Positions 3,457-30,039 of a stretch of 30,654 nt of DNA are shown in pieces; the stretch's first letter is position 1, and each line of letters begins with the position of its first letter. A program made the position numbers and the translations under genes. This DNA is from Sphingobium sp. GTDB taxonomy: Bacteria; Pseudomonadota; Alphaproteobacteria; Sphingomonadales; Sphingomonadaceae. Under the pieces are notes generated by a model. That model was not told where the DNA came from and made no database searches. It saw nothing but the letters and a program-made list of their open reading frames with translations. Location of the stretch: contig JASBTC010000045.1 of the NCBI GenBank assembly GCA_030148625.1, positions 1-30,654 on the forward strand, read 5' to 3'.

Positions 3457-3470
3457 AACCAAATGGTTGA
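3457..3470 (+). promoter_or_regulatory. Operator 2 for the ArsR-type regulator, overlapping the start codon
   Basis: AACCAAATGGTTGA repeats the AACC-N4-GGTTGA pattern of operator 1. Extended by one base on the left, it forms CAACCA-AA-TGGTTG at 3456-3469, a palindrome with perfect 6-base arms. It contains the ATG start codon at 3463-3465 and abuts the -10 element. Two identical half-site sets flanking the promoter fit autorepression by a dimeric winged-helix repressor. Confidence 0.6.
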
Positions 3471-4163: not shown

Positions 4164-4612
4164 GCGGTGCCGAGCCCGTCATCCTGACCGTCCGCCATGA
4201 TTATGCGGAATCGCCCGAGCGCGTGTTCGATGCCTGGCTCGATCCGGAGATCGCACCGCGCTTCCTGTTCGCGACGCCCGATGGCGAGATGATCCGGTGC
4301 GAGATCGACGCCAGGGTTGGCGGGCGCGGGTTGATCGTCGAGCGCAGGGCGGGCGGCGATGCCCATCATCGCATGAAATATGAGGTGATCGAGCGTCCGG
4401 AACGCCTCGTCTTCCTGTTTTCCGCCGATCCCGCCGAAGATGGCGAATGGACCCGCGTCACGATCGCGATCGCGCCGACCGCGTCGGGCTGCAATTTGGT
4501 CCTGACTCACGAGATGGACCCGCAATGGGCCGCATATGAAGAACAGACCCGCAGCGGCTGGACGATGATCCTCGACAGCCTGGGTCGCATGATGGAGACC
4601 GAAGATGATTGA
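4160..4612 (+). CDS. SRPBCC/AHSA1 domain protein (first copy)
   Basis: At 150 residues this is a single-domain START-like (SRPBCC) protein of the AHSA1 type. It opens with a beta strand and ESPERVFDAWLDPEIAPRFL, continues with MIRCEIDARVGGRGLIVERR and YEVIERPERLVFLFSADPAE, and ends with the long helix GWTMILDSLGRMM that closes the hydrophobic pocket. The family binds hydrophobic ligands; the exact ligand cannot be read from sequence. It shares the operon and repressor with a second AHSA1 protein that follows with an eight-base overlap. The two are divergent enough that they probably have different ligands or act as a heteromer, which is inference. Confidence 0.87.
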   Translation: MSGAEPVILTVRHDYAESPERVFDAWLDPEIAPRFLFATPDGEMIRCEIDARVGGRGLIVERRAGGDAHHRMKYEVIERPERLVFLFSADPAEDGEWTRVTIAIAPTASGCNLVLTHEMDPQWAAYEEQTRSGWTMILDSLGRMMETEDD

Positions 4613-5132
4613 TGTCGAACGGATCGCCCCGGATACGCTTCGTTTCGAACGGATGCTCGATGCGCCGGTGGAGACGGTCTGGCGCTATCTGACCGAATCC
4701 GAGCTGCGCAAGCAATGGTTCGCCGCAGGCGAACTGGAGCCGCGCGAGGGTGGAGCGGTCGAACTGATCTTCGATCACGACAATCTCTCGACCGAGGAGG
4801 TCCCCTATCCCGAGGATTATGCCAAATGGAAATGCGCGGTCGGGCACGAACGGGTGGTGAAGATCGATCCGCCCCGCCTGCTGTCCTTCACCTGGGACGA
4901 AGGCAAGGAAGGCGTGGCGACGTTCGAGCTGTTCGGCGAAGGCGAGAGGACCCGGCTGGTGCTCACCCATAATGGCATCACCGGACCCGGCCCGATGGCC
5001 AGTTTCGGCGGTGGCTGGTACTCGCATCTTGCGGTGCTCGTCGGGCGCCTCAATGGCGATCCCGTGCGCAATTTCTGGGCGATTCACGACGAGAGCGAAG
5101 CGGCCGTCGCGCGGATGCTGGCGGTGTCCTGA
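4605..5132 (+). CDS. SRPBCC/AHSA1 domain protein (second copy)
   Basis: The 175-residue protein has the AHSA1 pattern: FERMLDAPVETVWRYLTESE near residues 11-30, a pocket strand with LEPREGGAVELIFDHDNLS, PPRLLSFTWDEGKEGVATFE, then LVLTHNGITGPGPMASFGGG and a closing helix that starts WYSHLAVLVGRLNGD. It is longer than the first copy because of an insertion around YPEDYAKWKCAVGHER. It starts inside the end of the preceding gene (eight-base overlap, ATG at 4605) and is the last gene of the ArsR-controlled operon. It is probably cytoplasmic; the ligand is unknown. Confidence 0.87.
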   Translation: MIDVERIAPDTLRFERMLDAPVETVWRYLTESELRKQWFAAGELEPREGGAVELIFDHDNLSTEEVPYPEDYAKWKCAVGHERVVKIDPPRLLSFTWDEGKEGVATFELFGEGERTRLVLTHNGITGPGPMASFGGGWYSHLAVLVGRLNGDPVRNFWAIHDESEAAVARMLAVS

Positions 5133-15061: not shown

Positions 15062-17989
15062 GTGAAAATTGACAGTAAACGCCGCGGGCTTCGCGCCAGC
15101 GCGGCGCCGCTCGTGCTGAGCATTGCGTTGTTCTCGGCGCCGAGCTTCGCGCAGGACACTGCGCCGCAGGCCGCCGAAGAAGCTGGCGCCGAAGAAGCCG
15201 CAATCATCGTCACCGGATCGCGCATCGTGCGCCCCGACCTCGCTGCGTCGGTTCCGCTCGCGACCGTTTCGCAGGAACTGATCCAGGAATCGGGCACCGG
15301 CAACATCCAGGACGCGCTCGCCGACCTGCCGTCGGTCGGCCAGAATATCAGCCGCACCTCGTCGAACTTCTCGACCACGGGTAACGGCGTCGCCACCGTC
15401 AACCTGCGCAACCTCGGTTCGTCGCGCACGCTGGTGCTGGTCAATGGCCGCCGTTTCGTCGCCGGTCTTCCCGGCACGTCGACCGTCGACCTCAACACCA
15501 TCCCGACCGACCTGATCAAGCGCGTCGACGTCGTGACCGGCGGCGCATCCGCGGTCTACGGTTCCGAAGCCATCGCCGGCGTGGTCAACTTCATCCTCGA
15601 CGATCGTTTCGAGGGTTTCCGCTTCCGCGGTCAGGGTTCGATCACCGACAAGGGCGATGCTGGCCGGCAATATGTTTCGGGCACGTTCGGCCATTCGTTC
15701 GGCGACGGTCGCGGCCATGTCACCCTGTACGGTCAGTATGACCGCGACGAGGGCCTGCGCTCGCGCAACCGCAAATTCTCGGCGACCGACATTCCGAACC
15801 GCAGCTCCTTCGCAGCGCAGGGTCTGTTCAGCCTCGACGAACTGAACGTCAATCGTCCGGAGTTTGCGCCCGGCGCCAACTCGTTCACCTATGATGGCCT
15901 CAACAATCTGAAGCAGTATCAGAGCGCGAACATCGACGGCTACAACCGCAACGCCGACCGCTATCTCAGCGTCCCGGTCGAGCGTTACATGGGCAACCTG
16001 CTCGCCGACTACGAGATCACCGACGGCGTCACCGCCTATTTCGAGGGTTCGTACGTCAAGAGCAAGTCGCGTTCGAGCCTCGAGCCGCAGGCCGTTGCCG
16101 ACACCGATCTGGTCTATGCCGATGGCACGCCCTTCGCGGGCATTCAGCTCAACAACCCGTTCATTCCTACGGCCATTCTCAATCGTATCAATGCGCTGAA
16201 CTCGGATGGCGATGCGACGAACAATGTCGGGAACACGCTGTTCTTCCGTCGTCGTTCGAACGACATCTTCAATCGCAGCAATCGCAACGATCGTGAGACG
16301 TGGCGTGTGGTCGCCGGCCTGCGCGGTGACATCGGTTCGAAGCTGAACTGGGATGTCTACTACACCCATGGCGAGACCAAGGACTATACGCGTTCGGAAA
16401 CGATCCTCGGCCCGAACTACATCAATGCGCTCAACGCGGTGCAGGGGCCGAACGGCCCGGTCTGCTCGATCAACGTCGATGCGAATCCGAACAACAACGA
16501 TGCGGCCTGCGTGCCGATCAACATCTTCGGCTTCAATTCGGTCGATCCGCGCGCTGCAGCCTATGTGACCAACAACGGCCAGCTTTCGACCTATAATGCG
16601 AAGATCAAGCAGGACGTGTTCTCCGCGTCGATCTCGGGCGAGCTCTTCGACCTTCCCGGTGGCGCGCTCGGTGTCGCGGGTGGCTTCGAATATCGCCGTG
16701 AGTCGAGCACCGAGGATTTTGACGAGGCGACCAATCTCGGTCTGACCCTCGGCAACTTCCTGTCCGACACGCGCGGCAAGTACAACGTCAAGGAAGGCTT
16801 CATCGAAATCAACGCCCCGATCATCTCGGAGCGTCCCGGTTTCCACTATCTCGGCCTCGAAGGCGCGGCGCGTTATGCCGACTATTCGACGGTCGGCGGC
16901 GTGTGGAGCTGGAAGGTCGGTGGTACCTATGCACCGGTGCCGGACATCAAGTTCCGTGCAGCTTATGCGGAAGCGACCCGCGCGCCGAACATCTCGGAGC
17001 TGTTCTCGGCTCAGAGCGAGACGTTCCCCGCGGTCATCGATCCCTGCGATCAGCGTGCCGGAGAGGGCGATACCGGGGCGATCACGATCCCGCGTTCGAG
17101 CCTGCCTGCGGCTTGCCTTGCCAACCCGGCAATTGCGGCGGCATCGAACACGGCGAATGGTTTCGTCTATTCGACGGCGCAGATCCAGAACATCAACGGC
17201 TTCCTGGGCGGTAACCCCAATTTGAAGGAAGAGACTGCCAAGACGCTGACGATCGGTGGCGTGTTCACGCCGACCTTCCTGCGTAACTTCAGCCTGACCG
17301 TCGATTATTACCGGATCAAGGTGCAGAACGCGATCGGCATCATCGGTCAGCAGACCTCGCTCGACGAGTGCGTCACCGGCAGCGGTGAGGCGATCTTCTG
17401 CGACAACATCGTTCGCGATGCCAGCGGCCGGGTCACGACCGTCAATGCGATCAACCTGAACACGGGTTCGTTCACCGTGGAAGGTATCGATACGCAGGTC
17501 CGTTACCGCACCAACCTGGGCGGCAATGCCAGCCTCGACCTGAACGTCTATTGGAACCACCTGCTCGCGCAGAGCCAGGTTTCGTATCCGGGCGGTCCGA
17601 AGCAGGACGAGCTGGGTCAGCTGGACTGCTATTCGTGCGGTCGTCTGGGCACCGGTTTCAAGGACAAGGTGAGCGCTTCGGCCACGCTGAAGTATGACAC
17701 CTTCTCGCTGAACTGGCGGACCAACTTCTACACGTCGGTGGTTGACGACCTGACCAAGACGACCCCGATCCGTACGGGTTCGTTCTGGTACCATGACGCG
17801 CAGCTGCGCACGTCGCTGGGCGAGAAGAGCGCGTTCGACTTCTACATCGGCGTGAACAACGTCTTCGACAAGAAGCCGCCGGTGTTCGGCGACACCAATG
17901 TTGTGACCTTCCCGGGCGCACAGACCTCGGCGAACACCTACGACCTGTATGGCCGTATGTTCTACGCGGGCGTGGACGTGAAGTTCTAG
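15062..17989 (+). CDS. TonB-dependent outer-membrane receptor 1
   Basis: The 975-residue protein starts at GTG 15062 and has a signal peptide (about residues 1-30, ending APSFA). After an acidic Ala/Glu stretch comes a TonB-box-like AIIVTGSRI at 47-55, a plug domain with TGNIQDALADLPSVGQNISR, LRNLGSSRTLVLVNGRRFVA and TGGASAVYGSEAIAGVVNFI, and a large beta-barrel ending with the family-typical aromatic residue (GVDVKF). Receptors of this size take up large ligands such as oligosaccharides, peptides or siderophores, energised by TonB-ExbBD; the ligand cannot be deduced. No sigma/anti-sigma pair or SusD lies nearby. A strong terminator follows, and the downstream M19-like gene converges on it. 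Confidence 0.95.
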   Translation: MKIDSKRRGLRASAAPLVLSIALFSAPSFAQDTAPQAAEEAGAEEAAIIVTGSRIVRPDLAASVPLATVSQELIQESGTGNIQDALADLPSVGQNISRTSSNFSTTGNGVATVNLRNLGSSRTLVLVNGRRFVAGLPGTSTVDLNTIPTDLIKRVDVVTGGASAVYGSEAIAGVVNFILDDRFEGFRFRGQGSITDKGDAGRQYVSGTFGHSFGDGRGHVTLYGQYDRDEGLRSRNRKFSATDIPNRSSFAAQGLFSLDELNVNRPEFAPGANSFTYDGLNNLKQYQSANIDGYNRNADRYLSVPVERYMGNLLADYEITDGVTAYFEGSYVKSKSRSSLEPQAVADTDLVYADGTPFAGIQLNNPFIPTAILNRINALNSDGDATNNVGNTLFFRRRSNDIFNRSNRNDRETWRVVAGLRGDIGSKLNWDVYYTHGETKDYTRSETILGPNYINALNAVQGPNGPVCSINVDANPNNNDAACVPINIFGFNSVDPRAAAYVTNNGQLSTYNAKIKQDVFSASISGELFDLPGGALGVAGGFEYRRESSTEDFDEATNLGLTLGNFLSDTRGKYNVKEGFIEINAPIISERPGFHYLGLEGAARYADYSTVGGVWSWKVGGTYAPVPDIKFRAAYAEATRAPNISELFSAQSETFPAVIDPCDQRAGEGDTGAITIPRSSLPAACLANPAIAAASNTANGFVYSTAQIQNINGFLGGNPNLKEETAKTLTIGGVFTPTFLRNFSLTVDYYRIKVQNAIGIIGQQTSLDECVTGSGEAIFCDNIVRDASGRVTTVNAINLNTGSFTVEGIDTQVRYRTNLGGNASLDLNVYWNHLLAQSQVSYPGGPKQDELGQLDCYSCGRLGTGFKDKVSASATLKYDTFSLNWRTNFYTSVVDDLTKTTPIRTGSFWYHDAQLRTSLGEKSAFDFYIGVNNVFDKKPPVFGDTNVVTFPGAQTSANTYDLYGRMFYAGVDVKF

Positions 17990-18043
17990 AAACTGCAGTC
18001 AGAGGCGGAGGCGCCAAGCGCTTCCGTCAATGGCGGAAATGAG

Positions 18044-18077
18044 GGGGCGGAACCGAAGGGTTCCGCCCCTTCTTTTT
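18044..18077 (+). terminator. Rho-independent terminator of TonB-dependent receptor 1
   Basis: An 11-base-pair stem GGGGCGGAACC (18044-18054) and its complement (18059-18069) flank a GAAG tetraloop, followed by TTCTTTTTG. It sits 55 bases after the receptor stop and just beyond the 3' end of the convergent gene. Confidence 0.85.
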
Positions 18078-18082
18078 GAACT

Positions 18083-19192
18083 TCAGCCGAGCGCGTCGGT
18101 CAGCACGCGGGCCCAGTTGCCGCCCATGATCCGGTCGACCTCGTCGCTGGTGAAGCGTCCACGCTCCAGCGCACGACGAATGCGCGTCATCCGATCGATG
18201 CTGTTGAGTTCCGGGATCACGACATGTTCGGGGAGCGTCGCGAAGCCGGGGATGCCGGAATCGCGCATCGCGATCCACCAGGGCAGATATTCCTTTACCC
18301 CCTCGCCATTGTCGTTGTTCAGTTTGAGCAGGTTGGTCTGGCCGGCCATCGGGAAATCGTTGGAGATGCCGACGGCGTCGATGCCGCCGACGCGGATCAC
18401 GTGGCGGAGATTGGCGATCAGGTGGTCGACGGTCGGCACCGGATCGCGCGTCAGCCAGAAACTCATCATGAAGATGCCCATCATGCCGCCGCGATCCGCC
18501 ACCGCACGGATCGCCGCGTCGGATGCACAGCGGGGATGGTCGACGATCGCCCTGCAGGCGCCGTGCGAGATCACGATCGGCGTCCGGCTGGACTTCGCCG
18601 CTTCCAGCATCGTCGGTTCGGAGCCGTGCGATACATCCGGAAGGATGCGGAGCCGGTTCATCTCGCTTAGCCCTTCGCGACCCAAGGCGGTCAACCCGCT
18701 CTGCACGCGTTCGAGCGCGCCGCCCGCAAAGAGATTGTTATTGTGATGGGTGAACTGGAGGATGCGGAGCCCCTTGCCGTGGAAACGCGCGATGCGCGAC
18801 AGATCGGTGCCGACGGGTTCGCATGACTGGAACTGCAGAAAGGCCGCGCATCCCGGCCGGCGTCCGATGTCGCTGCCCTTGAGCGCGACGAAGCCGTATT
18901 CGCTCGACCGCAGCCGCGCCGCCGCCTTGTCGAGCGCGGCGTCGTTGACTTCGAACGTCCGCAGATAGCGCGGAATGCCCTGCACATCCTTCACTTCCTG
19001 GACTTCGGATACGTCGCAGATCATTGCCGTCAGCCCCGCCGCGCGGATATCGGCAAGATCCTCGGGCAAGAAGCTGAGGCCGTCGATCATGGGCGGCGTG
19101 CCGCTGCGGCTGGACAGGGCAGTGGTGCAGGCGCTGAGCGTGGCGGCGGTGCCGGCCATGAAGGCTCGGCGTGTCATTGAATGCGAAGTCAT
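18083..19192 (-). CDS. Tat-exported M19 (renal dipeptidase) family protein with altered metal site
   Basis: The 369-residue protein has a twin-arginine signal (MTRRAFMAGTAATLSAC), with a Cys that could also be lipidated, so it is exported folded. The fold matches family M19 dipeptidases: LRILQFTHHNNNLFAGGALE, then LPDVSHGSEPTMLEAAKSSR, IVISHGACRAIVDHPRCASD, and VGISNDFPM. Set against human membrane dipeptidase, His189, His210 and Asp279 are conserved with the same spacing (21 and 69) as His198, His219 and Asp288. The N-terminal HxD is replaced by Leu39 and Phe41 in IDGLSFLP, and the bridging Glu125 equivalent is Gln122. Classical binuclear dipeptidase activity is therefore doubtful. Stop-to-stop it faces TBDR 1. 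Confidence 0.82.
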   Translation of the reverse strand: MTSHSMTRRAFMAGTAATLSACTTALSSRSGTPPMIDGLSFLPEDLADIRAAGLTAMICDVSEVQEVKDVQGIPRYLRTFEVNDAALDKAAARLRSSEYGFVALKGSDIGRRPGCAAFLQFQSCEPVGTDLSRIARFHGKGLRILQFTHHNNNLFAGGALERVQSGLTALGREGLSEMNRLRILPDVSHGSEPTMLEAAKSSRTPIVISHGACRAIVDHPRCASDAAIRAVADRGGMMGIFMMSFWLTRDPVPTVDHLIANLRHVIRVGGIDAVGISNDFPMAGQTNLLKLNNDNGEGVKEYLPWWIAMRDSGIPGFATLPEHVVIPELNSIDRMTRIRRALERGRFTSDEVDRIMGGNWARVLTDALG

Positions 19193-19299: not shown

Positions 19300-19827
19300 C
19301 TATTCGACGCGCTTGACGCGGATGGAACGCCCTTTGTTGACCGAGGCCTTATAGCTGCCGAGCAGACCGGCCTCAATGCGGATCGGTTCGCCGGCCTTCA
19401 CCATGAAACCCAATTGGGATTCCGTCGTCTGCCAGGTCGTTCCGCCTTTCAATCGAAGCAGCCATTTGTCATGGCCGATGTCCCTTGCACTCGTGATGTG
19501 ATCGGTGATCTCGGTGACCTCCGGCTCATCATCGCCGCCGCCGAACAATTTGATGCGCGGCATCGAAAAACCGAAGACCGAACGCTTGGCCTGACGGACT
19601 CCTTCGCGATCGAGGACGACGATCTGACGCCGTTCGCGTGCGCCGGCGATCACCGCTGTGGCGCGATCGAGACAGGCGAGGCGCGCGCCGGAATCCGCAA
19701 TGCCGCGGCATGCGATCAAATCGTCGATCACCCTGCCTGGATTTTCGGCGCGCTCCTGCGTTTGCGCCGTCGCCGGCAGCGTCAGAGAAGTCACGCACAA
19801 TAAGACGCACATTGAAAAGCAACGCAT
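19300..19827 (-). CDS. Conserved hypothetical exported protein
   Basis: The 175-residue protein starts at the ATG read from 19827, which has a GGGAGGGG ribosome-binding site; the frame stays open upstream to 19932 but that stretch lacks one. Residues 1-22 (MRCFSMCVLLCVTSLTLPAT then AQ) form a signal peptide. The first part has VIDDLIACRGIADSGARLAC and LDRATAVIAG, a Cys-containing pattern common in small alphaproteobacterial envelope proteins. The C-terminal half (GTTWQTTESQLGFMVKAGEP then IRIEAGLLGSYKASVNKG) looks like a small beta-barrel. I do not know a function. It lies 108 bases upstream of the M19-like gene on the same strand. Confidence 0.75.
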   Translation of the reverse strand: MRCFSMCVLLCVTSLTLPATAQTQERAENPGRVIDDLIACRGIADSGARLACLDRATAVIAGARERRQIVVLDREGVRQAKRSVFGFSMPRIKLFGGGDDEPEVTEITDHITSARDIGHDKWLLRLKGGTTWQTTESQLGFMVKAGEPIRIEAGLLGSYKASVNKGRSIRVKRVE

Positions 19828-19915
19828 GCAGGCGGCCCCTCCCATGCTCAACCTATTCGAGGTTTCCGATCGATGGCAAGCGGTCGGTTCGATGGTCGGC
19901 GATAGTATATGGTGG

Positions 19916-19933
19916 TGTGATGATTTTATCACA
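19916..19933. promoter_or_regulatory. Palindromic operator-like site upstream of TonB-dependent receptor 2
   Basis: TGTGAT-N6-ATCACA is a perfect inverted repeat in an AT-richer patch between two divergent genes. It resembles a CRP/FNR-type site but has eight rather than six bases between TGTGA and TCACA. The binding protein is unknown. Confidence 0.4.
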
Positions 19934-20092: not shown

Positions 20093-23000
20093 ATGAAAAC
20101 AGTCTTCCGTTCGCGGTTGCTGGCGACGACTCTCATCGCCGGCATTACTGCCATTTCTACATCTGCCTTCGCTCAAGCCCAGCCACAGGACCAGCCGGCT
20201 GCTGAAACGCCGAGCGACGAGATCGTCGTCACCGGTACGCTGATCAAGAATCCGAATCTCGTCGCTTCGAGCCCGGTCTCGGTGATCGGTTCGGAAGAAA
20301 TCGGCCTCCGCCAATCCAATAACGCCGAAGAAATCCTTCGCGACCTGCCGGGCGCGGTGCCGAGCATTGGCTCGGCGGTCAACAACGGCAATAATGGTTC
20401 GTCGTACGCGGATCTTCGCGGTCTCGGCAACTTCCGCAACATCATCCTGCTGGACGGTGTCCGCATCGCGCCGTCGAGCACGGTCGGCCGTGTCGACCTC
20501 AATAATATCCCGCTCGCCTTGGTCGAGCGCGTCGATACGCTGACCGGCGGTGCCGCGACGACCTATGGCGCAGACGCGGTTTCGGGCGTGATCAACTTCA
20601 TCACCCGGACGGACTTCTCGGGCATCGAGGCCGCTGCCTCGCACCAGATCACCGAAAAGGGCGATGGCGCCTATTTCCGCGCCGACCTTACCATCGGCGC
20701 CAATTTCGACGATGGCCGCGGCAATGCCGTGCTGTCGGTCGGTTATCAGCAGTCCGATCCGGTTTATCAGGGCGCGCGCAAGATCTCGCTTAACAACTAC
20801 ACGTCGACGACGGGTAATCGGGGCGGATCGGGTACTACGGTGCCTGGACGCTTCACCCTGGGCAGCAATTTCAATTCGATCGTGCCAGAAACTGGCACGT
20901 TGCGACCCTATGTCGGCTCGCACGACGGGTTCAACTTCAACCCCTATAACGTATTCCAGACGCCGTTCGAGCGCTTCAACATTTACGGTGCTGGCCGTTA
21001 CGAAGTCTCCGACAGCATTGAGGTCTATGCTCGCGGCATGTTCTCCAAGAACAGCGTGAACACGATCATCGCGCCGTCCGGCATCTTCGGCCAGGTACTG
21101 ACCGTTCCGGTCAGCAATCCCTATCTGCCAGTTGCGGCGCGCAACCAATTCTGCGCCAATAACGACTTCGATTTCAATACGCCGGGTATCCAGTCACTCA
21201 CCCAGGCGCAGTGCGACGCAGCTGCGCTGGCGACCAACCCGAACGACCCGAACTTCCGTGCGTTCACCACCACGGTGGGTCGGCGTACGACTGAAGTCGG
21301 GCCTCGCCTTTCCGAATTCGTGACGCATCATTTTGATTATCGTGCCGGCGCGAAGATCGGCATCACTGACTCGCTGTCGCTCGATCTTTCGGGTTCGTAC
21401 GGCGAATCGGAGAACCGCCAGACCCAGTCCAACTATGTGCTGATCTCGCGGCTTCGCACCGCCGTCTACACAACCAGCACGACGAGCTGCAACCTCGGCG
21501 CGTCACCGACGATTTCCAACCCAAATCCAGCTCTTCCGCCACTCGCCGCTGGCGGTGCTGGAACCAATGCGGGCCCGGGCTGCGTTCCCGTCAACATCTT
21601 CGGTGCCGATGGATCAATTCTGCCGAACCAGGTGCCGTATCTGACCGCAGCGGCTGGTACGTCGCAGGAAACGTCACTGGCGCAGGCCCGTGCGTTGCTG
21701 ACCGGCGATCTCGGCTTCACGATTCCTTCGGCAAGCGATCCGATCGGCTTCGCGCTCGGTGCCGAATATCGCAAATACAAGGCCCGCCAGACCGCCGACA
21801 GCCTGTCGCAGACCGCGGGTGAACTCGGCGGCGCGGGCGGCGCCGTGCCGAACTTCTCCGGCGGCTATGACGTCAAGGAGATTTACGGCGAAATCATTGC
21901 GCCGATCGTTGCTGACAAGCCCTTCTTCCGCAGTCTGACGTTGGAAGCGGGCTTCCGTTATTCGGATTACAAAATCGATGCACCGGGCAATCCGGGCTAC
22001 AGCACAACCACTTATAAAGCAGGTGGTAGCTGGGAGCCGGCCGATGGCTTCAAGATTCGTGGCAACTATCAGCGTGCGGTGCGCGCACCCAATATCGCGG
22101 AGTTGTTCTCGCCCGTTAACACTGGCCTGACCAACTTGGCGATTGATCCTTGTCGCGGCACAAATCCGGCAACCATTCTCGGCAACGCGGCCTATAATGC
22201 GAATCTGGTGGCGGTTTGTCGTGCGCAGGGCGCTCCGGCGGCCTCTATCGGGTCCATCATTAACCCGACTGCGGCGCAGGCCAACGCAACTACGGCTGGC
22301 GGCACCTATCTGCGGCCGGAGACCTCGGATAGCTTCACGATTGGCGTGGTGCTTCAGCCCGACTTCGTGCCGGGGCTGTCGATCACGGTCGATTATTATA
22401 ATATCAAGATCAAGAACGCGATCTCGCAGCCGACGCCGGGCGATCTCATCACGGGCTGTTTTGGCAACAATAACGGCACTGCCGCAAATGTGAGCAATCC
22501 GATCTGTGCGCTGTTCCGGCGTAATCCCGTCACGGGCGGTCTCGATGGCGATCCGGCAACCACGCCGGGCCTCATCTTCCCGTCGTCCAACTCGGGCCGG
22601 ATCCTGACCGACGGTATCGATCTTGGCATCAATTATCGCCGGGATCTTGGTTTCGCGAAGCTGAGCCTGAGCTTCAATGGCAACTGGACACATCGTTCGG
22701 TCTTCCAGTCGCTGGTACCGGGTTCGGTCATTCCGCCAGGCTATCCTGGCGCCGGCGGTCCGCTGCCGGTGACCGACCCACGCGAGTGCGTCGGTCTGTT
22801 CAGCCAGAATTGCGGTTCGCCCGGTTCGGCAGGGCCGTCGTCAGCGGCAGGTTCGCTCCAGCCGGAGTTCACTTGGAACCAGCGCACCACGCTCAGCTTC
22901 GGCGATATCGATGTGTCGCTGCTGTGGCGTCACCTCAGCAGCATGAACGTCGAAGACGGTGTCACGACCTACAAGGGTGTCATCAAATCGGGTGTGCTGG

Positions 23001-23239
23001 CCGGCCGTACGGTCGATTTCGGTCATATCAAGGCATATGATTATTTCGATCTGGCGACGCGCTTCAGCGTCAACGAAAACCTGGACATCACGCTGACCGT
23101 CACGAACCTGCTCAACAAGGCGCCCCCGCTCGTCGGCGGTACCGTTGGGTCGACGTCGTTCAACAGCGGCAACACCTATCCGTCGACTTACGACGCGCTG
23201 GGTCGTCGCTACGCGGTTGGTGCCCGCGTCAAATTCTAA
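20093..23239 (+). CDS. TonB-dependent outer-membrane receptor 2
   Basis: The 1048-residue protein starts at ATG 20093 with AAGGGG at an eight-base spacing; the frame is open far upstream but only this start gives a signal peptide (MKTVFRSRLLATTLIAGITA to AFA, about 1-27). A TonB-box-like DEIVVTGTL follows at 42-50, then a plug with NNAEEILRDLPGAVPSIGSA, LRGLGNFRNIILLDGVRIAP and TGGAATTYGADAVSGVINFI, and a barrel ending GARVKF. The barrel has long Pro/Asn/Gly-rich loops with several Cys, suggesting a bulky ligand. Because it precedes the sulfotransferase/oxygenase cluster, it may import that cluster's substrate, or its loops or ligand may be modified there. That link is positional inference only. 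Confidence 0.94.
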   Translation: MKTVFRSRLLATTLIAGITAISTSAFAQAQPQDQPAAETPSDEIVVTGTLIKNPNLVASSPVSVIGSEEIGLRQSNNAEEILRDLPGAVPSIGSAVNNGNNGSSYADLRGLGNFRNIILLDGVRIAPSSTVGRVDLNNIPLALVERVDTLTGGAATTYGADAVSGVINFITRTDFSGIEAAASHQITEKGDGAYFRADLTIGANFDDGRGNAVLSVGYQQSDPVYQGARKISLNNYTSTTGNRGGSGTTVPGRFTLGSNFNSIVPETGTLRPYVGSHDGFNFNPYNVFQTPFERFNIYGAGRYEVSDSIEVYARGMFSKNSVNTIIAPSGIFGQVLTVPVSNPYLPVAARNQFCANNDFDFNTPGIQSLTQAQCDAAALATNPNDPNFRAFTTTVGRRTTEVGPRLSEFVTHHFDYRAGAKIGITDSLSLDLSGSYGESENRQTQSNYVLISRLRTAVYTTSTTSCNLGASPTISNPNPALPPLAAGGAGTNAGPGCVPVNIFGADGSILPNQVPYLTAAAGTSQETSLAQARALLTGDLGFTIPSASDPIGFALGAEYRKYKARQTADSLSQTAGELGGAGGAVPNFSGGYDVKEIYGEIIAPIVADKPFFRSLTLEAGFRYSDYKIDAPGNPGYSTTTYKAGGSWEPADGFKIRGNYQRAVRAPNIAELFSPVNTGLTNLAIDPCRGTNPATILGNAAYNANLVAVCRAQGAPAASIGSIINPTAAQANATTAGGTYLRPETSDSFTIGVVLQPDFVPGLSITVDYYNIKIKNAISQPTPGDLITGCFGNNNGTAANVSNPICALFRRNPVTGGLDGDPATTPGLIFPSSNSGRILTDGIDLGINYRRDLGFAKLSLSFNGNWTHRSVFQSLVPGSVIPPGYPGAGGPLPVTDPRECVGLFSQNCGSPGSAGPSSAAGSLQPEFTWNQRTTLSFGDIDVSLLWRHLSSMNVEDGVTTYKGVIKSGVLAGRTVDFGHIKAYDYFDLATRFSVNENLDITLTVTNLLNKAPPLVGGTVGSTSFNSGNTYPSTYDALGRRYAVGARVKF

Positions 23240-23539: not shown

Positions 23540-25189
23540 CTAAGTTTCGGAGCCGAACCGCTCGATCCAGGGAGCAAGGATCGGGTGTACGGACGAGAAC
23601 TCCTCTGCATAGCGCCGCCATTGCCCGCCGCCATTATACAATCCCTTGCGCACCTGCGTTTCGCTGGCGGTCCGAACACCGCGCGTTTTTGCTGTCCGGT
23701 CGAAGCGTAGAAACGCATCCGTCCATTCCAATCCGATAAAGTCGGCGAGTGCGCGCACTGTCGGCTCGAATTCGGCGACAAGCCGATCGTAGCGGACTTC
23801 GCGATAGGCGAGCGGCAGATTTTCCTGGCAGCGGTCGATCAGGCGCATCAGTGCGTCATAATGGCGCGCGGTTTCAGTTCGGTCGCTGAATGCCCATGCT
23901 GCGGCGCCAGGCGTGAAGTTGATTCGAAAACAGCTCAGGATCACGTCGCGCGGATCGCGGCGCATGATGACGATGCGCGCATCGGGGAACAGGCGTGCGA
24001 TGATCGGCAGCTTGATGCCGTTGAACGGGTTCATGTCGACGAGCACCTTGCCGACGACATCGCCGCCAAGCTGGCGCACCCGTTCCCAGTAGGCGGCCCG
24101 GAGCCGCTCCACCAAGGCTGGGTCGAGAGCATCGAGGTCGGGCATGGTTCCGTCATTGGCGAGCAGGGCCGCATCGACATCGGCCAGCGTATCGCGCTCT
24201 TCGAGCGCGATCACGTCGGGCGCGCTCGCCATGACATTTTCGATCAATGTGTTGCCCGATCGCGGATATCCGAGAAGGAAGACATGGATCGCGGCGGCGT
24301 CCGGAACAGGCGAAACCTGAGGCAGGGTGTGCAACACCCCGGTGCTTTCGACCTGCGCCGTGATCTTTTCGATGAAGGATCGGTGCGATGGCCGGCCCGG
24401 ACCGGGTTCGAGCAGCCGACGATAGGTGTCCCGAAAACTGCTCTGCGCGCGCGTATAGGCTGCAAAGGCCTCGACCGTACGACCTTGGCGATCCAGCGCG
24501 TCGCCCAACAGGGTCAGCGTCCGCGTCCGATCTTCCGGCTGCAATTTGGTTGCCAGCAGTGGCTCGAGCAGCGCCACAGCGGCTGCGCCGTCTTTTGCCT
24601 CTACAGCTATAACGGACAACGCGAACACGGCTGCCGGCTCATTGGGATGCAGCGCGAGCGCGCGTTTCGCATGCTGCTCGGCGACTGCGGTATCGCCGCG
24701 CCGTGCTGCGGAATCGGCCAGTTTTCCCAGCGCAGGCGCAAGATTGGGATCGATCGCGAGCGCGCGTTCGTAACTTGTGGTCGCTTCCTCTTCCAATCGC
24801 AGCGCGTCGAGGACATAGCCGCGCTCGAGCCATGCGGCCGAATGCCGCGGTTCAGCCGCCACGACGCGATCGAGCAGGGTAAGCGCTTCTTCCAGACAGC
24901 CTTGCTTGCGCAGCACGGCGCCGATCGAGCCGAGTATCAGCACATCGCCCGGAGAGAGCGCCAGCCCGCGCTGCAGGAGCTTGTGTGCGCTGGCATAATC
25001 GCCAGCCTCTTCCTTTTGCCAGGCCGCAAGATTCAACACCAATGGATCGGCATGTCCGGCCGCAAGTATCGATGTCGCGATCTTCGCCGCACCCTCAATG
25101 TCCCCGCCGGCAAGCAGTTGCTCGAGGCGCGTTCGCTGTAGATGGGGTGCGCCCATGGACTGGCGCCGTTTGCCGACTTTGTTTGACAT
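23540..25189 (-). CDS. Tetratricopeptide-repeat sulfotransferase
   Basis: The 549-residue protein starts at the ATG read from 25189, with AAGGG six bases upstream. Residues about 15-260 are TPR helices (for example LHPNEPAAVFALSVIAVEAK and LGDALDRQGRTVEAFAAYTR), a platform for protein or peptide partners. The C-terminal half is a sulfotransferase domain. The 5'-phosphosulfate loop is GYPRSGNTL at about 307-315, and the 3'-phosphate segment is RRDPRDVILSCFRINF at about 410-425. Such enzymes move sulfonate from PAPS to a hydroxyl or amine, and the TPR part suggests a polypeptide acceptor. There is no signal peptide, so it acts in the cytoplasm. It is divergent from a small exported four-Cys protein, starts 65 bases apart. 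Confidence 0.9.
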   Translation of the reverse strand: MSNKVGKRRQSMGAPHLQRTRLEQLLAGGDIEGAAKIATSILAAGHADPLVLNLAAWQKEEAGDYASAHKLLQRGLALSPGDVLILGSIGAVLRKQGCLEEALTLLDRVVAAEPRHSAAWLERGYVLDALRLEEEATTSYERALAIDPNLAPALGKLADSAARRGDTAVAEQHAKRALALHPNEPAAVFALSVIAVEAKDGAAAVALLEPLLATKLQPEDRTRTLTLLGDALDRQGRTVEAFAAYTRAQSSFRDTYRRLLEPGPGRPSHRSFIEKITAQVESTGVLHTLPQVSPVPDAAAIHVFLLGYPRSGNTLIENVMASAPDVIALEERDTLADVDAALLANDGTMPDLDALDPALVERLRAAYWERVRQLGGDVVGKVLVDMNPFNGIKLPIIARLFPDARIVIMRRDPRDVILSCFRINFTPGAAAWAFSDRTETARHYDALMRLIDRCQENLPLAYREVRYDRLVAEFEPTVRALADFIGLEWTDAFLRFDRTAKTRGVRTASETQVRKGLYNGGGQWRRYAEEFSSVHPILAPWIERFGSET

Positions 25190-25254
25190 GGCTGACCCTT
25201 GATCCCTATCATCACTTTCTTACAGCGGCATAGTCATTTTCTGGAGGCTTTGTT

Positions 25255-25521
25255 GTGCTTGGATTGATGATATCGACTTTTCTTCTCGTCGCGGGCACGG
25301 CCGGCAATGCCGGCTTGCAGGCCGCGCCGGGGGAGCGGGCGGCCGACCCGCAAGACAAGGTGATCTGCAAGCGTTTTGTGGAAACCGGCTCGCTCGTGAA
25401 GGGGCAACGCACGTGCAAGACAAAGCGCGAGTGGGAGCGCGACCGTGACAATATCCGCTCAGGTGGACCAGGCATCAATTCGTGCCGCGATGCCACCAAT
25501 GGCGGAGCGGGCTGCAACTAG
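25255..25521 (+). CDS. Small exported four-cysteine protein
   Basis: The 88-residue protein starts at GTG 25255, strongly supported by GGAGG (25243-25247) at seven-base spacing. A hydrophobic signal peptide (about residues 1-23) leaves a mature chain of about 65 residues with four cysteines. The core VICKRFVETGSLVKG...RTCKTKREWER is a motif I associate with small sphingomonad secreted proteins of unknown role, and the tail is Gly/Asn-rich with CRDATNGGAGC. The Cys pairs suggest two disulfides in the periplasm. It is divergent from the TPR-sulfotransferase. It might be a substrate of the neighbouring modification enzymes, but the family seems widely scattered, so this is speculative. Confidence 0.75.
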   Translation: MLGLMISTFLLVAGTAGNAGLQAAPGERAADPQDKVICKRFVETGSLVKGQRTCKTKREWERDRDNIRSGGPGINSCRDATNGGAGCN

Positions 25522-25575
25522 ATCAAGCTGCATGATTTCGGAATCACATAGCGTGATCTAGGTGTTTGTTCTGCC

Positions 25576-25622
25576 GCGATTTTCGAGTCGTTCGATGGTT
25601 CCATCGAACTGCAAATCACTCT
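25576..25622. repeat. Dispersed hairpin element, copy C
   Basis: It has a GCGATTTTCGAGTCG left arm, a perfect inner hairpin TTCGATGG-tt-CCATCGAA (25591-25608) and a right arm GCAAATCACTC. It lies between two convergent 3' ends. The preceding GTTTGTT run resembles the sequence before copy A. Confidence 0.65.
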
Positions 25623-26679
25623 AGCCGAGAAGCGCGGCCGGTGGAGTGAGGGCCACGCCTGCGCCCGCGGCGACGACTTCCGTCCATCGGGCGACCTTGT
25701 CGATCTCATCCGCGTGAATTTCCGCGGCGTCGCGGTGCTCGGCGGCGCGGTCGTTCGAATCGAACGCATTGCCGGATTTCGAATGGGTTCTAAACGCCGG
25801 TCCCGCGGCAATTTCATCGATGGCGGCTCGTGTGAGGGGGCGGCCGAACAACGTCGCGATCGCTGAAATCGCGGTATGCGGATCCTGCATCAATGTTGCG
25901 CTGTCCAGTGTCCGGATACGAGCCGCCCCGAACTGATGGACAAGCGCTGCGAACAGCTTCTGGTGCGCCAGCCAGGTGACCGCCGCCACCTGAAGATCGG
26001 TATGACCAAGATGATCGCGCGGGGTGAAGCCCAGATCGATCAGCTTGTCGTCGAGCATCCCGGTCAGCAGCGTTCTGATCCAGAGGCGGCCGTCGATTCC
26101 CTTCTTTGCGATCGAGCCGAGAAAGGTGCGCAACGGCGCATAGAGCAGGATCGCGCGCGCCTCGGGGCGCAGCGCCAGCATTGCCGGCGCCAGGCCGTTG
26201 ACGGCCGTCGACGGCTTGATGATCACGGCTTCGTCCGGGGCGAACGGCCTTGTCAGCAAGGCGAGGCTGTCGTCGAGCACGCTCGCCATGTCGGGGCCTT
26301 TGCCGCCGCGGCGTCGCCAGCCGACAATGTCGTTGAGGATGACGGGTTCCTTCAGCCCCATGCCCCAGCCTGGACGATCGACAGCGCGTGCCAGCAAGGT
26401 CGAGCAGCAAAAGGCGGAGTGGAAAAGGAAATGCACCGGCGCGCGCGGCGGTGCCGCGGCAATGGCATCCTTGCGCCGTACCGCCAATGGTTCGAGGCCC
26501 ATTGGCAGATATTCGTCCGTGATGAAGGTCGCCTTGCGATGGTCTTCGCGAGAGACGGGCAGCAGATGGACGGCGTCATGGTCGGGATCGTAGCGATGGG
26601 CGAGCCAATTTGCGTCGTGTATCGCATCGGCGATCGATCGCGGTGGCGGCATGCTGGTCGATGATAAGGGCGGCGACAT
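25621..26679 (-). CDS. Sulfotransferase-like P-loop protein 1
   Basis: I do not recognise a named family with certainty. The 352-residue protein has a loop FHSAFCCSTLLARAVD (about 86-101), placed like the 5'-phosphosulfate loop of sulfotransferases, followed by LKEPVILNDI and later ARAILLYAPLRTFLGSIAKK. The same ordered motifs occur in the protein at 28029-28997 (FHMAHCGSTLLARALD, LREPLALRQT, ARAILLYLPLREYLLAILRS), so the two are paralogues. No signal peptide is seen. The start could instead be the ATG read from 26652 (MPPPRSIADAIHDANW); neither has a clear Shine-Dalgarno sequence. It is divergent from the TPR/aspartyl hydroxylase gene, starts 67 bases apart. An ATP-using P-loop enzyme remains possible. 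Confidence 0.75.
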   Translation of the reverse strand: MSPPLSSTSMPPPRSIADAIHDANWLAHRYDPDHDAVHLLPVSREDHRKATFITDEYLPMGLEPLAVRRKDAIAAAPPRAPVHFLFHSAFCCSTLLARAVDRPGWGMGLKEPVILNDIVGWRRRGGKGPDMASVLDDSLALLTRPFAPDEAVIIKPSTAVNGLAPAMLALRPEARAILLYAPLRTFLGSIAKKGIDGRLWIRTLLTGMLDDKLIDLGFTPRDHLGHTDLQVAAVTWLAHQKLFAALVHQFGAARIRTLDSATLMQDPHTAISAIATLFGRPLTRAAIDEIAAGPAFRTHSKSGNAFDSNDRAAEHRDAAEIHADEIDKVARWTEVVAAGAGVALTPPAALLG

Positions 26680-26746
26680 CTTGGCTATGTGTGTGCTGAA
26701 CCGGCGCGGCGTTGTCTAGTCGCCACGGCGGCGCTATGCCGAGCGG

Positions 26747-28039
26747 GTGGATCAGTCGCAAATCCAGCACATGCTCACGACCGCCGTTCAGGCGCGACGT
26801 GCGGGGCGAATCGACGAGGCAGTTCGCCTTTTCCAGACGGTGGTCACGCGCGGCGGGGAACAGCCACAGGCGCTGAACGCGCTTGGGTTGCACGCGATCA
26901 ATCAGGGCAATTTTGCCGAGGCTGTGCCGCTGCTGCGGCGGGCCATTGCCGCGGATCCGGGGGCGCCCGATCTGTGGATGAATCTCGCAAGGGCATTTCG
27001 CGAACAGCGCGACGATGACGGCGAGGAGGAAGCGCTTCGCGGGGCATTGTCGATCGATCAGCGTCACTTCATGGCGCTGGTGCGGATGGCGGAACTGCTC
27101 GAGCGTCGCGGCGATGATTCACGAGCCGCGGAACGGTGGCGTGGCGTACTCGCGATGGCGCCGATGATCGAGGAACGTTCGCCGGCGCTCGAAGCCATGG
27201 TGGAGCATGCCCGCGACTATGTCGCCCGGCAGCGGGATGGTTTCGCTGGTGCGATCGATCGCAGTCTTTCGGCAGCGCGCGCCGCGGTGGCGCCCGCCGA
27301 ACTTCGCCGTTTCGATGCGTGCATCGATCACGCGCTCGGCCGCCGGGAAATCTACGCCAATCAATGCGCGGGCATGCATTTTCCCTTCCTGCCTGCCGAT
27401 GAATTCTTCGCGCGGGAACATTTTCCGTGGCTTGCAGCCATTGAGGCCGAAACCGATGCGATCCGGGCCGAGCTCGAAGCCGTGCTTGCCGAGGATGCTG
27501 CCGCGATCCGGCCCTATGTCGCGATGGAGCCCGGCACCCCGACGAACAAATGGTCGCCGCTCGACCATTCGCTCGACTGGGGCGCGATGCATCTGTGGAA
27601 GGATGGCCGGCGCGACGATGCGGTCTGCGCGCGGGTTCCCCGCACGGCGGCGGCTGTCGAAAAACTGCCTTTGTCGGACCTGCCGGGGCGCACGCCGACC
27701 GTTTTCTTCTCGCTGCTCAGGCCGGGCGCGCATCTGCCGGCGCATACGGGTGTGAGCAATGTGCGGACGATCATCCATCTTCCCTTGATCGTCCCGCCGA
27801 ACTGCGATTTCCGCGTCGGTGGAGAGACGCGGAGCTGGACGGTCGGCGAGGCCTGGGCCTTTGACGATACGATCGAGCACGAAGCTTGGAATCGATCGGA
27901 TCAGTTGCGGGCGATCCTGATCTTCGACGTCTGGAATCCCCATATCGCGCCGGTGGAGCGCGACCTGCTGCGACGCTTCTATGCGGTCGCGGCGGATGCG
28001 GATGGCGCGCCGTCCGAGGCGATCAGCATTAGCGAATAA
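26747..28039 (+). CDS. TPR protein with aspartyl/asparaginyl beta-hydroxylase-like oxygenase domain
   Basis: The 430-residue protein begins at GTG 26747 (an in-frame ATG at 26771 is the alternative). Residues about 1-145 are TPR helices (MLTTAVQARRAGRIDEAVRL; ALNALGLHAINQGNFAEAVP). The C-terminal 200 residues match AspH: NKWSPLDHSLDWGAMHLWKD, SLLRPGAHLPAHTGVSNVRT, HLPLIVPPNCDFRVGGETRS, and FDDTIEHEAWN. His333 and His378 correspond to the two iron ligands of human AspH (His679 and His725, 46 apart there, 45 here); like AspH, no acidic third ligand is seen. The domain uses Fe(II), O2 and 2-oxoglutarate to hydroxylate Asp or Asn side chains. The lack of a signal peptide suggests a cytoplasmic peptide substrate recognised by the TPRs. 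The 3' end overlaps the next gene by 11 bases. Confidence 0.9.
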   Translation: MDQSQIQHMLTTAVQARRAGRIDEAVRLFQTVVTRGGEQPQALNALGLHAINQGNFAEAVPLLRRAIAADPGAPDLWMNLARAFREQRDDDGEEEALRGALSIDQRHFMALVRMAELLERRGDDSRAAERWRGVLAMAPMIEERSPALEAMVEHARDYVARQRDGFAGAIDRSLSAARAAVAPAELRRFDACIDHALGRREIYANQCAGMHFPFLPADEFFAREHFPWLAAIEAETDAIRAELEAVLAEDAAAIRPYVAMEPGTPTNKWSPLDHSLDWGAMHLWKDGRRDDAVCARVPRTAAAVEKLPLSDLPGRTPTVFFSLLRPGAHLPAHTGVSNVRTIIHLPLIVPPNCDFRVGGETRSWTVGEAWAFDDTIEHEAWNRSDQLRAILIFDVWNPHIAPVERDLLRRFYAVAADADGAPSEAISISE

Positions 28040-28997
28040 GTGCCGATGCGATCAGCCTGTCGCGGGCAGGCGTCTTGCGGGCATGTCGCGCGAGCCAGGC
28101 CTCCGCCTGATCGAACTCCGGCGCGATGGTCCGCTCCACGTCGGCGAGCCGGGCGAGCCGGGCGGCATTGTCGAACGCCAATGTCGGATTCTTGGAATAG
28201 GTGGCGAATAATGGGCTGGCGACGGTTTTCTCCAGCACGGTATCCGAAATCGGCACGCCCAGGTGCCGCGCTGCCGCCTTGAGCACATCGATGGGGTCGG
28301 CGAAAAAGCTTTCGGCGTCGAGCGTGCGGGCATTCGGCATGCGTGCCAGGGTGTCGCCAAAGGCATCGACCTGCGCCAGCCACAGCGCTGCGGCGCGTTC
28401 GGCATCGGTCAATGCGGACAGATCGCCGAGATGGCCGGCGAGCTGTGCGGTGACGTTCCGCAGCCAGGTGCGGTGATTGTCGCTGCGCAGGATTGCGAGC
28501 AGATATTCGCGGAGCGGCAGATAGAGCAGGATGGCGCGGGCTTCGGTGTCGGCAGCGCTCAACTGCGGCAGCAGGAAATTGACCGGCACGTTCGCCTTGA
28601 CCAGCGTTGGGGCATCGGCGCGATAGCGTTTGCCGAGCATCGCCGCGACGAGCCCCAATCGCCCGGCCGCGGGCTGGATCGCCGTCTGCCGCAGCGCCAG
28701 GGGCTCGCGCAGTACCAGGCTGGCGCCCGGATCGTCGAGCGCACGGGCAAGCAGCGTCGAACCGCAATGCGCCATGTGGAAGATCCAGCCGGTCTGCGAG
28801 GGGCGGCGGGGAGCAGCCGTCAGCATCGTGACGGGCAATTTCATCGATTGATCGGCGGCGGGAGAAATCCGACCGTCGAGAAAGATCGATCGATGATAGG
28901 CGGCGCGATCCATCGGCATGAAGAGCGCGGCGTCGCCCTCGAACGAATGCAGGAAATGATCCGGCGAGGCGAAGAGGTCGTCGAGCGTCAAGGACAT
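28029..28997 (-). CDS. Sulfotransferase-like P-loop protein 2
   Basis: This 322-residue protein is a paralogue of the product of 25621-26679. Shared motifs in order are an opening HRSIFLDGR (HRKATFITDEY in copy 1), the loop FHMAHCGSTLLARALDDP (about 73-90), LVLREPLAL, EARAILLYLPLREYLLAILR, then TWLRNVTAQL and a C-terminal helical region including ATYSKNPTLAFDNAARLARL (copy 1: RTHSKSGNAFDSNDRAAEHR). The HCGSTLL loop is like the RSGSTLL loops of bacterial sulfotransferases, though the assignment is by motif only. A TTG at 29000 directly before the ATG is the other possible start. The start is 49 bases from that of the divergent oxygenase at 29047, and the 3' end overlaps the TPR-hydroxylase by 11 bases. 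Confidence 0.77.
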   Translation of the reverse strand: MSLTLDDLFASPDHFLHSFEGDAALFMPMDRAAYHRSIFLDGRISPAADQSMKLPVTMLTAAPRRPSQTGWIFHMAHCGSTLLARALDDPGASLVLREPLALRQTAIQPAAGRLGLVAAMLGKRYRADAPTLVKANVPVNFLLPQLSAADTEARAILLYLPLREYLLAILRSDNHRTWLRNVTAQLAGHLGDLSALTDAERAAALWLAQVDAFGDTLARMPNARTLDAESFFADPIDVLKAAARHLGVPISDTVLEKTVASPLFATYSKNPTLAFDNAARLARLADVERTIAPEFDQAEAWLARHARKTPARDRLIASALIR

Positions 28998-29046
28998 CAA
29001 GCGGGCTATAGCCTATGCCGTTTTGGGCGGCTATCCCTGCATCACT

Positions 29047-30039
29047 ATGCCGCATGTTCATCTGCCGGAAGCCGGCCAACCCCATGTCGTGATCGAGCCG
29101 GATGGCGAAGGCGGCATTGTCGATCTCGATCCGGCGACGATCATCGATCTCTACAAAAGCCATGGGGCGTTGCTCTTCCGCGGCTTTGGCGCGGATGTCG
29201 CCCAGTTCCGCAGTTTCGCGCGGCAATTCTGCTCGACCGCGGTGGTGAATGAGAGCCCGGGCAGACAGCCGATCGATCCGGAGGCCAATATCCATACGGT
29301 CGATGGCGGCGTCGGCGCCTTCTCGCTCCATCCGGAATTGTCGCGCGAACCCTGGAAACCCGATGCGGTTTTCTTCGCATGTCTGTCGGCGCCAAGCCGG
29401 GGTGGGCAGACGACGATCTGCGACGGCGTGGCGCTGGTCCGGGAGATGCCCGAAGCCGTGCGCCGAGGGCTGGAGCGCCGAAGGTTGCTGTACATCAAGC
29501 CGACCTGGCCGGAACTGCTCGACTATTGGCTCGGCACGCCCAATCCGAGCGATGCGCAACTCGCATCACCGCCGGCTCAATGTCCCTATGCCTTTCGGCG
29601 GTTTCCGGATGGCACGATCGTGCGCTTCTTTTCGCGACCCGCCTTGCACAAACCGATGTTCACCGATGATCCGGCATTCGGCAATTTCCTGCTTTTCGCA
29701 CGTTTCAATCATGGACGGCCCGATCACCCGGTTCTCGACGACGGGCATCCGGTGCCCGAAGCGTGGCTGCAGGCGATCAAGGAAACCGGCGATCGCTTGA
29801 GTGTCCCGATCAACTGGCGTGCCGGTGACGTCGTGATGCTGGACAATAGCCGGTTCATGCATGGGCGGACGGCGATCATCGATCCGGCGGAAAGGCTGAT
29901 CGCAAGCTATTTCGGATATCTGCGCTTCGCCATTCCCGATGCCGAGGAGCCCGCGGATCCGATCTGGCGGCGCGAGGATTTCGAGCCGCCGCTACGGCCC
30001 GATCATCCCCGCTTCCGTCCAACTGCAACCGCCGGGTGA
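29047..30039 (+). CDS. TauD/clavaminate synthase-like Fe(II)/2-oxoglutarate oxygenase
   Basis: The 330-residue protein shows the TauD/TfdA fold in the variant with an HxE iron motif, as in clavaminate synthase, AsnO and SyrP-type enzymes. Visible are LYKSHGALLFRGFGADVAQF, the ligands His95 and Glu97 in SLHPELSREPWKPDAVFFAC, RGGQTTICDGVALVREMP, and the distal His272 in VMLDNSRFMHGRTAI. That subgroup hydroxylates amino acids, often free or carrier-bound (Asn, Asp, Arg) in peptide biosynthesis. The ATG at 29047 is used; an in-frame TTG at 29023 would add eight residues and neither has a good Shine-Dalgarno sequence. It is divergent from sulfotransferase-like protein 2 and cytoplasmic as read. 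No NRPS genes are nearby, so the substrate is open. Confidence 0.88.
   Translation: MPHVHLPEAGQPHVVIEPDGEGGIVDLDPATIIDLYKSHGALLFRGFGADVAQFRSFARQFCSTAVVNESPGRQPIDPEANIHTVDGGVGAFSLHPELSREPWKPDAVFFACLSAPSRGGQTTICDGVALVREMPEAVRRGLERRRLLYIKPTWPELLDYWLGTPNPSDAQLASPPAQCPYAFRRFPDGTIVRFFSRPALHKPMFTDDPAFGNFLLFARFNHGRPDHPVLDDGHPVPEAWLQAIKETGDRLSVPINWRAGDVVMLDNSRFMHGRTAIIDPAERLIASYFGYLRFAIPDAEEPADPIWRREDFEPPLRPDHPRFRPTATAG

Follow-up and report, generated by a model that had tools for sequence, protein, structure and literature searches.

Introduction

In Caulobacter, the dioxygenase CciO is required for the function of the adjacent TonB-dependent transporter CciT; the substrate of CciO is unknown, and why an outer-membrane receptor should need a cytosolic oxygenase at all is set out as an open question for this pair (PMC12004947). 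In PiuA-PiuC and Fiu-YbiX a receptor gene likewise adjoins the gene for a cytosolic Fe(II)/2-oxoglutarate (2OG) oxygenase (PMC12004947). Methanobactin loci (MbnA, MbnS, MbnT) combine a small ribosomal product, in some groups a sulfotransferase, and a TonB transporter (PMC3621798). Here we describe a contig of Sphingobium sp. (JASBTC010000045.1, assembly GCA_030148625.1; the whole stretch of 30,654 nucleotides is hereafter called the window) in which a TonB-dependent receptor gene (TBDR 2) is followed by six genes in three divergent pairs. They encode two Fe(II)/2OG oxygenases, a sulfotransferase with TPR domains (TPR-ST), a small exported-looking protein (SMALL) and two members of a sulfotransferase-like family (STL1 and STL2).

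Unlike CciT-CciO, the window has TPR-AspH (PF05118) and TauD-type (PF02668) oxygenases rather than a CciO/YbiX enzyme beside the receptor, and it adds STLs, SMALL and TPR-ST; the word 'sulfotransferase' is absent from the main text of PMC12004947. The YbiX/CciO family is, however, one of the five partner families of STLs, and because STLs elsewhere pair with CciO-type oxygenases, the window module appears, by analogy, to be tied to this known kind of receptor-oxygenase partnership without being a member of it. It differs from the methanobactin loci in its AspH and TauD oxygenases and in SMALL, judged by eye to be Sec-exported and predicted to be folded; neither MbnB nor MbnC was present among the Pfam-annotated neighbours, though no search was aimed at them. 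We found no paper describing the locus in the open-licence PMC literature, which does not imply its absence from print at large; a word search of PMC7142613, on sphingomonad TonB transporters, gave no instance of hydroxylase, sulfotransferase, oxygenase or clpB. Among receptor-oxygenase loci, the cluster is a new variation in which an unnamed partner of transferase fold is added.

Results

The receptor and the six genes are arranged as follows:

20093-23239, plus strand: TBDR 2, TonB-dependent receptor adjoining the cluster (Pfam plug and barrel; the same receptor in 5/5 named relatives, 64-86% identity)
23540-25189, minus strand: TPR-ST, TPR-sulfotransferase (Pfam PF13469 Sulfotransfer_3, 6e-30, plus TPRs)
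25255-25521, plus strand: SMALL, exported-looking protein (export signal by eye) with invariant residues and, in the AlphaFold2 model, a Cys38-x15-Cys54 beta-hairpin and a helix
25621-26679, minus strand: STL1, predicted sulfotransferase-fold family, AspH-partnered group
26747-28039, plus strand: TPR-AspH, Fe(II)/2OG oxygenase with N-terminal TPRs (PF05118, 3e-42)
28029-29000, minus strand: STL2, predicted sulfotransferase-fold family, placed by tree and residues in the TauD-partnered clade
29047-30039, plus strand: TauD/TfdA-family Fe(II)/2OG oxygenase (PF02668, 4e-31)

All six open reading frames (ORFs) are present, and their strands alternate (-,+,-,+,-,+). The divergent pairs are separated by 65, 67 and about 49 bases, the last value assuming that STL2 starts at the ATG at 28997 rather than at the TTG at 29000; STL2 and TPR-AspH converge with an 11-base overlap. 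This strand order, the gaps and the family calls for the TPR-sulfotransferase, TPR-AspH and the clavaminate-synthase-like (TauD-type) oxygenase had been put forward in an earlier reading of the bare sequence (the original prediction) and were borne out by ORFs and Pfam, as was its view that STL1 and STL2 are paralogues (30% identity in the family alignment, 31-36% in cross-comparisons with relatives) facing oxygenases of different kinds. We reject a single, simple duplication as the origin of the two oxygenase/STL pairs, as the oxygenase families differ and the two STLs fall into separate clades.

STL1 has no significant match in Pfam or NCBIfam, and STL2 has only a sub-threshold match to PF13469 (E=0.095) in these databases. 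The AlphaFold2 model of STL1 is confident, and its top structural relatives by Z-score were human TPST1 and TPST2 in a VIA-align look-up, which re-ranks Foldseek's list and is not exhaustive; Foldseek itself also returned sulfotransferases, at modest TM-scores. Homology was supported when the STL profile was aligned with that of TPR-ST (probability 94.5, E 8e-8), with a gap in the alignment at the P-loop. STL1 and STL2 can thus be assigned to the sulfotransferase fold, and the STLs constitute one unnamed family with the predicted fold of tyrosylprotein sulfotransferases.

F52, S93, T94, E111, P112, K155 and K301 are invariant across a 71-member STL alignment. The usual residues for the sulfonate donor 3'-phosphoadenosine 5'-phosphosulfate (PAPS), however, are missing: in contrast to TPST1/2, with which they share the fold, all 71 STLs lack the P-loop Lys/Arg (PK/RSGTT, 5'-phosphosulfate), which is replaced by F, Y, H or Q, and none has Arg at the Arg position of the 3'-phosphate motif R-x7-S. 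The Ser of this motif is retained in 31/31 STLs of the AspH group, 10/17 of the PF13661/Btu group, 2/12 of the CciO type and 0/11 of the TauD type, where it is Ala in all 11; the register is backed by hhalign to the TPR-ST profile and is less sure in the CciO-type rows. In 14 of the 17 PF13661/Btu rows an Arg lies two residues past the usual P-loop place and may substitute for the usual Lys/Arg; the window STLs have Cys or Gly there. Because the canonical P-loop and 3'-phosphate residues are missing, we speak of a sulfotransferase-fold family and assign no donor.

The other three enzymes keep the conserved residues of their families; the roles given here to Lys, Arg and Glu residues are those usual for sulfotransferases, AspH and TauD enzymes. 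TPR-ST, for which human TPST2 is a PDB match (1e-9), retains PRSG, the Glu and RDP...S, with R310 in the P-loop, E331 as the catalytic Glu, and R411 and S419 for the 3'-phosphate; together with S311, G312 and T314, these residues are invariant in 16/16 aligned sequences. TPR-AspH exceeds the PF05118 cut-off of 22.6 by a wide margin (144.5 bits), its H333, H344, H378 and R388 are invariant in 29/29, and a profile of its family finds AspH structures in the PDB (8.5e-45). It shares with human AspH the combination of TPRs and a PF05118 oxygenase domain, but it is bacterial, lacks a signal peptide by eye and is encoded beside a receptor. The TauD-type oxygenase has the HxD/E...H triad and distal Arg of its family, with H94, E96, H271 and R282 invariant in 12/12.

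An STL was present in 111 of 296 genomes drawn from the same order, at 134 places, two of them in locus L001. The DNA round all of these was scanned in six frames with profile hidden Markov models (HMMs) built from these neighbourhoods; counts are taken from these scans because the ORF caller had placed antisense frames over some AspH genes, and STL-oxygenase gaps are distances between HMM match ends. Together with the window (2), L002-L005 (8) and L186 (1), and with the two places of genome G001 taken from L001, this gave 145 STL places. An oxygenase of one of five Fe(II)/2OG families lies within 3 kb at 100 of these, and four oxygenase matches lie at 5-8 kb. The nearest oxygenase is AspH at 51 places, YbiX/CciO-like at 24, PF13661 at 14, TauD at 9 and TPR-PF13759 at 2, with none at 45; window-type STL2 copies, which overlap or abut the AspH gene, are counted under AspH though their divergent partner is TauD. 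The YbiX/CciO assignment rests on two representatives of this partner family that score above the NF003974 cut-off. Here STL and oxygenase matches are at most 38 bases apart in 22/24 places and share a strand in 18/24.

Partner type follows the STL tree, a quick tree of 144 rows with some long branches, from which matches below 250 residues and identical rows had been dropped. Over the 99 oxygenase-partnered rows only 6 changes of partner are required, as against about 48 when labels are shuffled (200 shuffles, lowest 41); the six window-type STL1 rows are labelled AspH after their divergent partner, and labelling them TauD instead gives 7 changes. TauD-type STLs (15 rows) and CciO/YbiX-type STLs (24 rows) each form a single clade, with Shimodaira-Hasegawa-like approximate likelihood ratio test (SH-aLRT) values of 100 and 99, respectively. 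Pfam provided an independent check: in 40 STL-positive genomes chosen by hand, 34 of 81 PF05118 genes, in 33 genomes, lie within 5 kb of an STL, where about 0.3 would be expected under uniform placement, and in 7 of the 40 none is nearby. A further STL group of 11 rows (L093, L126, L128 and related loci) adjoins btuFCD, often with uvrA too.

Searched with STL1, the named genomes yielded five loci, all in Sphingomonas or Sphingobium. The six-gene arrangement is more than chance, because the order TBDR 2, TPR-ST, SMALL, STL1, TPR-AspH, STL2, TauD is kept in 5/5 named relatives. Among all fetched loci, however, the complete set is confined to the window and L001-L005. In the 130 drawn loci other than L001, STL and AspH occur together in 42, with SMALL in addition in 35, with the receptor as well in 32 and with clpB as well in 24; STL and TauD co-occur in 9, of which only one also has AspH. 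The six genes are therefore a composite of a receptor module that is widespread and an STL2-TauD module that can stand apart, and the three pairs named in the original prediction, while real as an arrangement, resolve into these two in the relatives. Module A comprises the TonB-dependent receptor, STL1, the TPR-AspH oxygenase, SMALL with its Cys-x15-Cys hairpin and, optionally, the TPR-sulfotransferase, and resides mostly at a conserved xseA-M23-clpB site, though STL, AspH and SMALL also occur together without a nearby receptor, xseA or clpB at L037 and L067. Module B, the STL2-TauD pair, is also found alone at other sites: it is divergent in 9/9 drawn loci, with 34-54 bases between match ends, and 8 of these 9 have no TBDR 2-type receptor in the fetched stretch. 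Outside the order STLs are scarce: of 289 genomes drawn across the class, 9 had an STL match at 1e-10 and only three at 5e-73 or better, two of which (G001 and G010) were already within the order-level draw.

SMALL has no match in Pfam or NCBIfam, and its fold gave none in the PDB at E 0.001. One homologue carries the precomputed Pfam accession PF28279.1, unseen in scans of the Pfam copy used, so the family may already be named elsewhere. C38, G45, C54, T56 and W60 are invariant in 36/36 aligned sequences, and the predicted structure, confident over residues 31-70, is a two-strand hairpin with the Cys pair on facing strands, plus a helix. We obtained 101 SMALL matches, of which three off the Cys-Cys pattern were dropped before counting; the Cys-x15-Cys spacing holds in 96 of the remaining 98. 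The window copy does have the four Cys originally ascribed to it, but only two are general to the family: the tail has no extra Cys in 76/98, two in 21/98 and one in 1/98, and the C-terminal pair is found in all six window-type loci. We reject the idea that SMALL is hydroxylated at a single site, having seen no Asn or Asp shared by its AspH-locus copies.

SMALL-like genes occur in at least 159 of the 296 genomes. Within 6 kb of a TBDR lie 85 of the 101 matches, 83 of them on the TBDR strand. Twenty loci away from STL, chosen by hand from the better non-STL matches among those listed (G171:C1:43951 was left out), were also inspected; 12 hold a TBDR 2-type receptor and 8 do not, and in 10/20 SMALL and TBDR are less than 1 kb apart on the same strand. 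Upstream of SMALL lies one promoter-like site, against 1.4 in shuffled sequence:

25183-25212, plus strand: sigma-70-like promoter TTGACA-18-TATCAT, upstream of SMALL (11/12 consensus positions)

TTGACA is identical in 6/6 window-type loci, which may be partly due to the abutting TPR-ST start codon, and TATCAT is found in 3/6.

Although BtuB is the best PDB match of TBDR 2, the match is restricted to the plug region, and the window contains no Rfam match at the gathering score, hence no cobalamin riboswitch. Vitamin B12 uptake by TBDR 2 was rejected on these grounds, the riboswitch belonging to another STL group. Upstream of the receptor, 19917-19932 is inverted-repeat-like (GTGATGATTTTATCAC), a possible operator that occurs only once in the window, even when up to three mismatches are allowed.

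Discussion

As the pairing of oxygenase and STL genes is kept in many relatives, the cluster probably marks an undescribed chemical step, one connected either with uptake or with a small protein that is secreted. The best full explanation, to which we give a probability of roughly 0.45, is that STLs are oxygenase-coupled transferases, tied in module A to a receptor. The locus would be a TonB-receptor site onto which two modules of an oxygenase and an STL have joined, module B as an independent, recruited pair. We infer sequential chemistry: a dedicated Fe(II)/2OG oxygenase would hydroxylate a substrate in the cytosol, and the STL would then transfer a group to the hydroxylated product, or act on it otherwise. 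The pathway of module A would serve TBDR 2, which may depend on it as CciT does on CciO in Caulobacter, with TPR-ST as an extra tailoring enzyme; SMALL, which has its own promoter-like site and an exported look, is the best candidate for a protein substrate or carrier. A coupled hydroxylase/sulfotransferase pathway had been proposed from the outset, and the pairing and partner fidelity of the STLs lend it strong genomic support, while sulfonation by the STLs is at most putative, the residues usual for it being missing.

Several observations weigh against this explanation. Of the 145 STL places, the 45 without any of the five oxygenases include 27 that also lack a TBDR or SMALL within 6 kb, one STL group adjoins btuFCD and uvrA rather than an oxygenase, and, when the rows without a partner are included, neither the AspH-type nor the PF13661-type STLs form a single clade (7 and 6 changes, respectively). 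The HMMs for neighbouring genes, having been built on STL-adjoining genes, are biased towards finding them there, SMALL-bearing loci were mostly fetched on account of STL, and vertical inheritance accounts for part of the co-location, module A being largely one syntenic locus. No recognisable SMALL is present in 7 of the 42 drawn STL+AspH loci, and we saw no Asn or Asp shared among the SMALLs of AspH loci. The analogy to CciT/CciO, a different receptor with an oxygenase of a different family, is indirect.

The best-surviving alternative, though an unlikely one, casts SMALL as the substrate proper. Made on the ribosome and bearing a Sec signal, it would be hydroxylated by TPR-AspH and modified by TPR-ST, perhaps also by STL1, in the cytosol, then be exported, bind a metal or ligand and return to the cell through TBDR 2, in the way that MbnT takes up methanobactin. 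SMALL adjoins the receptor even where no STL is present, as in the 12 SMALL-only loci above, it occurs in up to 4 tandem divergent copies, and its extra tail Cys are paired. Precursor, TonB transporter and, in some cases, sulfotransferase are found together in methanobactin loci (PMC3621798). Furthermore, in the turn and after the Cys, SMALL carries different residues at AspH and at non-AspH loci (with a single SMALL taken from each TBDR locus and kinship uncontrolled, Fisher P 4e-5 and 1e-3), a sequence difference that hints at contact but that phylogeny could also produce. The predicted hairpin-helix over residues 31-70 is folded, however, and no free core peptide, and no residue open to hydroxylation was seen to set the SMALLs of AspH loci apart.

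Rather less plausible is that the enzymes process a ligand imported by TBDR 2, such as a siderophore or a peptide, releasing or detoxifying it after uptake. For PiuC, YbiX and CciO, a role in altering the substrate that the neighbouring receptor takes up has been proposed (PMC12004947), and STLs do pair with that oxygenase family. Moreover, one STL group neighbours an uptake operon, btuFCD; in 3 of the 7 loci of this group that were scanned, btuB has a cobalamin riboswitch upstream, the other four stretches having no btuB match. Yet none of the cluster's genes with a family match encodes an inner-membrane importer, and the STL2-TauD pair and most pairs of STL and CciO-like enzymes reside away from the TBDR 2-type receptor family. 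TPR domains, too, suggest protein or peptide substrates. Finally, we regard it as improbable that the stable xseA-to-clpB site merely gathers co-inherited accessory genes that act separately: 24 of the 32 drawn loci with STL, AspH, SMALL and TBDR do also hold clpB in the fetched stretch, but STL2-TauD stays divergent and closely spaced elsewhere too, at L037 and L067 STL, AspH and SMALL stand together with no xseA or clpB nearby, and close spacing to CciO-like genes and partner fidelity on the tree likewise speak against it.

A bolder version of the oxygenase-coupled transferase, which we consider quite doubtful, is that STLs form a new enzyme class with a rebuilt donor site, attaching a group to freshly hydroxylated residues or ligands, with one oxygenase family per subclass; SMALL would be the acceptor in module A, making this an undescribed receptor-coupled system of Sec-exported modified peptides in Sphingomonadales. 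As a second protein family that travels with receptor-linked oxygenases, the CciO family included, the STLs offer a new handle on the question why receptors need oxygenases. Should their donor be other than PAPS, an old fold would prove to carry out new chemistry. SMALL, a short protein with an exported look, provides a concrete candidate substrate whose mass can be measured by mass spectrometry.

Additional features of the locus

Beside the receptor lies a further gene of the conserved locus:

19303-19845, minus strand: c6, exported-looking protein (six-frame HMM match; no Pfam family)

It encodes about 180 residues with an RSLFGFSLP-like motif and recurs beside the receptor at the xseA-M23-clpB site. 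Between M23 and TBDR 2, the window also contains genes for another receptor (TBDR 1) and for an M19 dipeptidase (15062-19192), unlike most fetched relatives. At L066, L118, L096 and L186, STLs are accompanied by dense mixes of TPR-AspH, TPR-PF13759 oxygenases, TPR-sulfotransferases and CciO-like or TauD enzymes; these mixed clusters adjoin receptors and resemble a combinatorial toolbox. Farther away, an ArsR-like regulator, a DUF1428 protein and, one ORF beyond, an AHSA1 gene lie on a single strand at 3463-5132.

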